Origin: Candidatus Sulfuritelmatomonas gaucii
Lineage (GTDB): Bacteria > Acidobacteriota > Terriglobia > Terriglobales > Acidobacteriaceae
Direction of reading: 5' to 3'
Assembly: GCA_900290245.1 (NCBI GenBank)
Contig: OKRB01000080.1
Location: 1-64,000, forward strand
DNA length: 64,000 bases
A program made the translations under genes and the position numbers. Positions 1 through 55,621 of the stretch are shown here, in pieces. Position 1 is the first letter of the stretch. Every line of letters begins with the position of its first letter. The notes beneath the pieces are model-generated. The model searched no databases, was not told the origin of the DNA, and was given only the letters and a program-made list of their open reading frames with translations.

Positions 1-403
1 GCTCGACGAGCTGCTTGTGGGTGAGCCTGCTCCACGCTGCCGGCATCGGCTGCTTGCCGGGGTCGGCCCAGCTATCGGAGTAGTGGAAATCGAGCAGAAC
101 ATGAAAACCCTGCGTCCTGGCGCGAGCCGTTAGCGCCAGAGTGTAGTTGAGATCGTTGGGCAAATGATCGGGCGCGACAGCGGGGCCGTGAAAGATCCGC
201 AGCCGGACCCAGTTGTAATTGTGCTCGTGCAAAAGAGCAAGAACGTCGATGGGCCGACCGTTCTCTTTAAAGATCACTCCATCTTGTTCGCACTTTGCCA
301 GGAACGAAACGTCGGCACCGACGGCATAGTTTTGCGCGCCTTCCTGCGATAATGCGCAAGCAGCAAAACAAGCGAAGAAGACCGGCGCCCAGAGGGTTCG
401 CAT
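1..403 (-). CDS. Arabinogalactan endo-beta-1,4-galactanase, GH53 (N-terminal part)
   Basis: Reads from ATG at 403 down to the window edge, so about 134 N-terminal residues are visible and the C-terminus is missing. A Sec signal peptide (MRTLWAPVFFACFAACALSQ) is followed by the GH53 opening GADVSFL and then by NYNWVRLRIF and FHVLLDFHYSDSWADPGKQ, which are hallmark strands of the GH53 TIM barrel. The family is usually 340-400 residues long and cuts internal beta-1,4-galactosyl bonds in type I (arabino)galactan. The catalytic glutamates lie outside the window. It is probably exported and works with the GH35 beta-galactosidase next to it, which could release galactose from the oligomers. The promoter region carries a 15-bp block at 496-510 that is repeated in front of that GH35 gene. 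Domain assignment is recognition of family motifs; co-function is inference. Confidence 0.9.
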   Translation of the reverse strand, partial: MRTLWAPVFFACFAACALSQEGAQNYAVGADVSFLAKCEQDGVIFKENGRPIDVLALLHEHNYNWVRLRIFHGPAVAPDHLPNDLNYTLALTARARTQGFHVLLDFHYSDSWADPGKQPMPAAWSRLTHKQLVE

Positions 404-55334: not shown

Positions 55335-55364
55335 TTGACTTTGCGCCGCCTTTCGCCGTAATTT
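55335..55364 (+). promoter_or_regulatory. Promoter-like boxes before the structured RNA
   Basis: TTGACT (55335-55340), an 18-bp spacer, then TAATTT (55359-55364); shifting by one base gives 17 bp and GTAATT. Among the better sigma-70-like matches I saw in this window. The start of transcription would be near 55371. Confidence 0.5.
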
Positions 55365-55397
55365 GTCCTTACACGGGAAAGGAGGTTGATCCAGCCT

Positions 55398-55448
55398 ATG
55401 AGCAAAGATGGTTCGAGTTGTAACTTACGTGAGGTGACTGAGGCCTAG
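55398..55448 (+). CDS. 16-residue putative leader peptide
   Basis: ATG to TAG, peptide MSKDGSSCNLREVTEA. It is preceded by AAAGGAGGTTGATCCAGCC (55378-55396), which is the reverse complement of a typical 16S rRNA 3' end with one extra T. Codons 9-13 overlap helix A and codons 13-17 overlap helix B, so a translating ribosome would open both. A second in-frame ATG at 55497 would give MALALAAARWP, with its GGAGG hidden in the hairpin loop region. Confidence 0.35.
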   Translation: MSKDGSSCNLREVTEA

Positions 55449-55557
55449 GGCATCGCGCCCAAGACTCAGGTAAGTCCAGGCGGAGGGTTCTCCGTCATGG
55501 CTCTGGCACTCGCGGCAGCGCGATGGCCTTAGTCCAATCCCAACAGATCACCGGCAG

Positions 55558-55595
55558 CGGCCTGGGAACGCGAGTTCCCGGGCCGTTGTTGCTTT
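55558..55595 (+). terminator. Intrinsic terminator with GCGA tetraloop
   Basis: CGGCCTGGGAAC and GTTCCCGGGCCG form a 12-bp stem (one T-G wobble) closed by a GCGA loop, followed by TTGTTGCTTT. The best intrinsic terminator I saw in the window. It ends the structured RNA or attenuates the DinB gene. Confidence 0.75.
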
Positions 55596-55621
55596 GAAGG
55601 CAGGGTGCAAAGGACGATTCG

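Follow-up and report, generated by a model that had tools for sequence, protein, structure and literature searches.

Sequence conservation gives good support to the view that positions 55335–55595 on the plus strand of the window, the 64,000-nt stretch of Candidatus Sulfuritelmatomonas gaucii DNA that was analysed, constitute an autonomous RNA gene that is new to Rfam and includes a translated ORF of 11–22 codons. In order, its parts are a pair of promoter boxes, the leader, an ORF of 16 codons, a region that folds and the terminator (Table 1). The unit is flanked on one side by an ORF for a small membrane protein, which ends there, and on the other by a DinB_2 gene, which is followed by nrdR.

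Organization and spread of the RNA unit

The earlier note had described a self-contained RNA between a TTGACT-18-TAATTT pair and a 12-bp, GCGA-capped terminator with a T-rich tail, and this description stands, with promoter, leader, ORF, fold and terminator all conserved and with neighbours that vary. An equivalent promoter pair (TTG[AC]-16..19-TANNNT) lies upstream of 49 of the 53 representative homologues, compared with 9 of 1,060 random positions in the same loci, and the terminator stem covaries among the 26 homologues from the window's genus. A generic scan called neither a promoter nor a terminator at the unit, so both assignments depend on conservation. The leader, the ORF end and the 3′ element are nearly invariant in the 26 genus homologues, and the RNA from 55371 to 55600 is predicted to fold at −101.5 kcal/mol, below all 200 shuffled sequences (z = −3.61).

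The next genes differ among 30 loci and are convergent in several. The commonest same-strand neighbour, thiG, was found at 64 of 181 loci; a second count gave 66 of 172 members of families f1 and f2 and, over the 400–500 nt covered, 0 of 20 members of further families, a distribution that marks thiG as a clade-level neighbour and on which its regulation in cis was rejected. In one part of f1 (66 loci, for example L212, L213 and L241), a same-strand thiG begins a short distance past the terminator. The proposal that the RNA regulates the DinB gene is not borne out by the neighbours, which vary and of which several are convergent, with a DinB-like gene (judged by resemblance to the DinB_2 protein of the window) next in about 9 of 181 loci. 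It is the conserved promoter, together with these varying neighbours, that leads us to regard the unit as autonomous.

Table 1 Features of the RNA unit in the window
Feature	Position	Strand	Detail	Basis or conservation
Promoter	55335–55364	+	TTGACT 55335–55340, 18 nt, TAATTT 55359–55364	Sequence and conservation
Leader ACACGGGAAAGGAGGTTGATCCAGCCT, likely RNA 5′ end	55371–55397	+	Putative transcript start	Nearly invariant in 26 genus homologues
Candidate closing helix P1	55375–55383 (GGGAAAGGA) with 55533–55541 (UCCAAUCCC)	+	Would hide part of the Shine–Dalgarno sequence	
Extended Shine–Dalgarno	55376–55396	+	Predicted 20 bp with the 3′ end of 16S rRNA; T55386 bulged	
Short ORF MSKDGSSCNLREVTEA	55398–55448	+	TAG stop	Open in 26 of 26 genus homologues
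Helix A	55423–55433/55465–55475	+	One G–G mismatch	
GAGGTG, Shine–Dalgarno-like, inside ORF	55431–55436	+	Three codons before stop	Homologue spacing
Helix B 5′ strand, ORF end	55438–55445	+	Partner 55525–55532	
Hairpin H2 (GGGC/GCCC), at/after stop codon	55448–55460	+	Overlaps B2 5′ strand	
Helix B2 5′ strand	55452–55457	+	Partner 55519–55524	
3′ strand of B2 and B	55519–55532	+	Pairs across 6-nt bulge 55446–55451	
Attachment-site core GTCCAATCCCAACAG	55532–55546	+	Used by G002 integrative element; its 15 bp recur at each end of a 42-kb stretch	
Conserved 3′ element CCAATCCCAACAGATCACCGG	55534–55554	+		Invariant or nearly so in genus
Intrinsic terminator	55558–55595	+	12-bp stem 55558–55569/55574–55585, GCGA loop, T-rich tail	

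BLAST found the element in 33 of 60 relatives, all belonging to the window's genus, and of the 249 genomes of the order, 183 were hit by a covariance model built from 26 genus members (R1). For a sequence-only model limited to the 5′ half (R2), the 53 representatives were used, before any outside-class sequences had been fetched; it matched 195 of 399 genomes in the class of the window and, in a 297-genome sample of the phylum, 32 of 33 genomes inside the class and 18 of 264 outside it. Sixteen of these 18 outside-class matches were read: 14 aligned and 15 were judged to be members, L355 being a chance match. Rebuilt with the outside-class members, the model (R3) matched 218 of 349 class genomes (195 of the 272 good ones) and 52 of 297 genomes in the phylum sample (33 of 33 inside the class and 19 of 264 outside, the latter count being partly by construction), the R2 and R3 searches alike having used stricter filters by which members can be missed. 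An exact two-block pattern, which matched 1 of 297 phylum genomes, was too strict and missed the window genome itself.

Named carriers include Granulicella, Edaphobacter, Terriglobus, Terracidiphilus and Occallatibacter, from a scan for the leader pattern in which, among the matches listed, the ORF core was also present in 109 of 119 stretches; some complete genomes gave no match, for example G018, of the same genus as the window. The search for homologues that had been proposed thus turned up members well beyond the strain, including in other classes, and it is well supported that the RNA gene goes back at least to the ancestor of the window's acidobacterial class. Two matches per genome were obtained in G309, G333, G487, G510 and G516. 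At L032, L033, L041, L040, L045 and L046, about 160 nt of additional sequence, structured and conserved, separates the H2 region from the 3′ strand of helix B; this longer form gave no Rfam match in L032, L033 or L041, and the window's genome contains a copy of it (L034; G000 C17 2217–2508) without leader and start codon.

The RNA had also been said to fit no known family, and a search of Rfam 15 agrees: no family reached its gathering threshold in the window or in five homologous loci, the best sub-threshold match being Pxr (16.7 bits versus 80). Text searches of open-access papers found no description of the RNA, from which its absence from print does not follow.

Leader, short ORF and the motif ahead of the stop codon

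The complementarity of the leader to the 3′ end of 16S rRNA, with which it should be able to pair, is well supported. The 16S 3′ end, as read in genomes G002 and G137 and confirmed with RF00177, is GCGGCTGGATCACCTCCTTTCTA, with its mature terminus placed approximately; no such 16S 3′ end was found in the window's own assembly. The predicted energy of pairing is −37.1 kcal/mol for the window leader, compared with a mean of −11.6 and a strongest value of −21.8 kcal/mol for the start regions of 71 comparison ORFs of at least 200 codons (taken from the window only, uncurated, and some of them not genes). For the 53 representative leaders, the mean is −33.2 and the weakest value −24.5 kcal/mol. When both strands of the window were divided into 12,794 tiles, the three that pair best with the 16S end all fell at the element. 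The leader of family f5, AGAAAGGAGGTGATCC, matches the reverse complement of the 16S end exactly; f5 and f6 have no bulge, their leader AGAAAGGAGGTG(A/G)TCC being complementary to the 16S end without interruption.

The ORF that follows is probably translated, or at least kept translatable, and conservation of its frame is well supported. Genus ORFs encode 15 or 16 residues, and the sole internal indel among the 26 members is one of three bases. Across 183 distinct sequences, an in-frame start was present in 183 and an in-frame stop in 182, giving 14–22 residues with all length changes in frame, a result that is partly by construction in that the start search ran in the frame of the core. The starts were ATG (177) or GTG (6) and the stops TAG (148), TGA (21) or TAA (13); the ORF stop is lost in L089. 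In an independent check, 172 of 176 sequences, and 51 of 53 representatives, had the first ATG after the leader in frame, and the remaining two frames were interrupted by stops in 35 and 52 of the 53 representatives. Single-base codon differences between near pairs, which are not independent of each other, comprised 221 synonymous and 487 other changes (31% versus 18.1% expected).

The encoded peptides, of 11–22 residues in 34 members of further families, have a conserved Ser/Asp/Cys middle and an E-V-x-x-x end and differ widely in sequence among families; Ser and Cys codons are common, with Cys not in every member. A Pfam search of the peptides gave sub-threshold matches only. At the level of nucleotides, the final six codons hardly vary. 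A type I toxin mRNA was considered and rejected, the peptides being Ser/Asp/Glu-rich by reading, with no hydrophobic membrane peptide among them. The earlier note had recognized the short ORF over both 5′ arms, in the layout of a ribosome-controlled element, and the homologues keep this ORF open. It had also taken a conserved protein in this frame to speak against a structured RNA; a peptide of 11–22 residues is indeed conserved, and the same stretch is constrained as RNA as well.

What had been overlooked in this layout were the complementarity to the 16S 3′ end and the Shine–Dalgarno motif at a fixed distance from the stop codon. The spacing of this motif, GAGGTG, appears well supported as a conserved feature: the stop follows it after three codons in 172 of 176 sequences and after four in the remaining 4, and further-family peptides, as read, end in E-V/G-x-x-x-stop in all 34 members, of which the spacing script scored 24, having picked a later GAGG in the other ten. 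Variants in the further families are GAGGGT in four members and GAGGTA in one, and f5 has GAGGGT. When the A site contains the stop codon, GAGGTG ends 6 nt before the P-site codon, and 6 nt is a normal initiation spacing for a Shine–Dalgarno motif. It is because of this geometry that we propose a held terminating ribosome, and the spacing suggests that anti-Shine–Dalgarno pairing may be used at termination.

Alternative helices and the 3′ element

The helix coordinates in the earlier note, and the order A5′, B5′, A3′, B3′ of the strands, proved correct. Of the two interpretations it offered, a pseudoknot of helices A and B fits poorly with the pairing of helix A in just 64.9% of genus cells (P1, 99.5%; B, 94.7%; B2, 86.4%), and, on an argument from geometry, a linker of 3 nt from one 5′ strand to the other would be too short to span the 17-bp helix B; it was rejected on both counts. 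The other interpretation, a switch, gains from the comparison: B2 and H2 share bases 55452–55457 and are therefore mutually exclusive, a ribosome at the stop codon would cover both, and both covary across genera.

Shuffling tests of covariation gave a divided answer. Within the genus, where P1 is nearly invariant, covariation is weak: up to 4 pairs are doubly changed, against 3.0 for shuffled data, and 129 of 500 shuffles do as well. Across genera, B, B2 and H2 exceed shuffled partners, in tests whose statistics ignore relatedness: among the 53 representatives, B2 forms at least 6 bp in 34 versus 11.4 with shuffled partners (0 of 200), H2 forms at least 4 bp in 50 versus 42.9 (0 of 200 reach the mean length), and helix B has a mean length of 6.58 bp versus 6.36 bp (0 of 200 as long). 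For P1, cross-genus covariation was not found in the same representatives (188 of 200 shuffles as good). Two additional pairings were rejected: P0, by which the 3′ element would mask the Shine–Dalgarno sequence in a pseudoknot (4 bp in 43 of 53 versus 39.9 when shuffled; 71 of 200 shuffles), and a weak third helix between the 3′ strands of A and B (11 of 200 shuffles). In the 34 further-family members, pairing of the ORF end with downstream sequence sums to 302 bp versus 290.5 bp, with 3 of 200 shuffles as high. Exchange between B/B2 and the post-stop hairpin would fit a ‘switch’.

Downstream structure is divergent in families f4, f6 and f10, where the 3′ element is unrecognizable. Some f6/f4 members (L326, L327, L329, L330 and L335) retain leader and ORF and have a different downstream RNA; in these, a downstream CTCACGCG seems to be the partner of the ORF end CGCGTGAG instead. 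Outside the class, the 3′ element is recognizable in several families and missing or weak in others.

In the complete genome G002, a tyrosine integrase (PF00589, E = 2.8e-17) is encoded 56 nt after the element, and about 42 kb (4474590–4516997; L338 and L339) separate the element from a displaced copy of its own 3′ end. At the far end, the 15-bp core stands at the displaced 3′ end with the original terminator. At the element itself, the island rebuilds the 3′ end, the new letters reading CAACAGTTTACCG, and brings another terminator at the terminator position. Such restoration supports a need for an intact 3′ end. According to PMC4383910, tRNA and tmRNA genes are restored in the same way by integration. 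The G002 island also has TTTGTGCTAATT arm-like repeats besides the core repeat, and G030 has a displaced end only. L042 and L043, considered as short RNAs sharing the 3′ end, were rejected as displaced ends, the one in G002 being the far end of the island. A plasmid search gave no match, and searches of viral contigs returned 1 and 0 stretches; L337 (IMGVR_UViG_3300050020_000295) is a 42,384-base viral contig carrying the element, and its stretch appears to end just past the attachment-site core (CACCG), as a provirus junction would.

Possible modes of action

The reading we favor, and hold tentatively, is that of a trans-acting translated RNA that captures the 30S subunit and parks a terminating ribosome, which in turn sets the fold. 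The leader would capture the 30S subunit by pairing with the exposed 16S 3′ end, and the captured ribosome would translate the short ORF to its stop, where GAGGTG, at initiation geometry, would hold it while the A site contains the stop codon. So held, it would cover the 5′ strands of B and B2 as well as the post-stop hairpin; once it had gone, or if it had never arrived, B/B2 or the hairpin could form. The likeliest surface for passing on either state to another partner would be the 3′ element. More doubtful is the wider proposal of a phylum-level RNA sensor, by which ribosome recycling or release-factor supply would be read out as two trans-acting folds.

Parts of this architecture have counterparts elsewhere. 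In prfB, an internal Shine–Dalgarno element lies near a stop codon, and its short spacing drives frameshifting. The likeness lies in a Shine–Dalgarno-like motif inside an ORF that acts, or here is proposed to act, on a decoding ribosome near the stop; by contrast, the motif in our RNA stands at initiation distance from the last sense codon, with no continuation in another frame. Like our RNA, tmRNA is a structured RNA with a short ORF whose 3′ end is used by integrases. Identity with tmRNA was rejected, a separate tmRNA being present in each of three genomes examined and no tRNA-like domain being seen: ARAGORN called no gene in the window and, across 34 loci, none at the element. In Staphylococcus aureus, 16S pairing is likewise longer than the usual helix, PMC13009471 reporting two additional base pairs towards and beyond the 16S 3′ end; in our case, unlike that account, 20 bp are possible, the pairing extends the other way too, and it belongs to one conserved RNA gene.

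Other readings account for parts of the evidence. It is unlikely that the unit is a dual-function small RNA in which the 3′ element CCAATCCCAACAGnnYACCG is an mRNA-pairing seed and the ORF a side product or brake. Such RNAs with a short ORF include SgrS, RNAIII and SR1, and ours resembles them in being small, structured and peptide-coding, with its own promoter and terminator (here assigned by conservation); it differs in sequence and in the phylum-level conservation of ORF end and leader. Autonomy, a terminator and a 3′ element conserved like the leader in the genus and recognizable outside the class favor a seed, yet 16S pairing and the fixed GAGGTG–stop distance would be left unexplained, and some families have lost the 3′ element while keeping leader and ORF. 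We give still less credence to a plain mRNA that has an unusually strong Shine–Dalgarno sequence and encodes a functional peptide of 11–22 residues. In-frame length changes, the excess of synonymous changes and the conserved middle and end of the peptide would all follow from it, but near-invariance of the last six codons in their nucleotides is what RNA or ribosome pairing would lead one to expect, the helices beyond the stop covary, and the peptide varies widely among families.

The long, conserved 16S complementarity could also mean that the leader acts as a sink for, or check on, 16S 3′ ends, binding free 30S subunits or precursors that the ORF merely clears; this we consider very unlikely, as neither the frame nor the GAGGTG inside the ORF nor the terminator would then be needed. 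Highly improbable, finally, is a cis-acting, ribosome-controlled attenuator of a downstream gene such as thiG. With attenuators of this type (trp/his and other leader peptide operons), the unit shares a short ORF lying over exclusive helices and an intrinsic terminator, and thiG does follow on the same strand in the f1/f2 members counted above; but thiG was not found downstream in the 20 further-family members counted, other neighbours vary and several are convergent, and inspection by eye found no antitermination pairing to the terminator stem. The unit differs from such attenuators in being autonomous, with no constant downstream gene, and in its 16S-complementary leader and second Shine–Dalgarno motif before the stop.

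One of the commonest soil phyla harbors a conserved RNA gene without an Rfam entry, the leader of which is far more complementary to 16S rRNA than the other ORF starts examined. Its novelty lies in the architecture; if its output were mRNA pairing, the RNA would fall among the dual-function small RNAs. If the trans-acting, ribosome-parking reading is true, it would become testable what strength of binding to the 30S tail still allows an mRNA to be translated, and whether an RNA can sense ribosome recycling.
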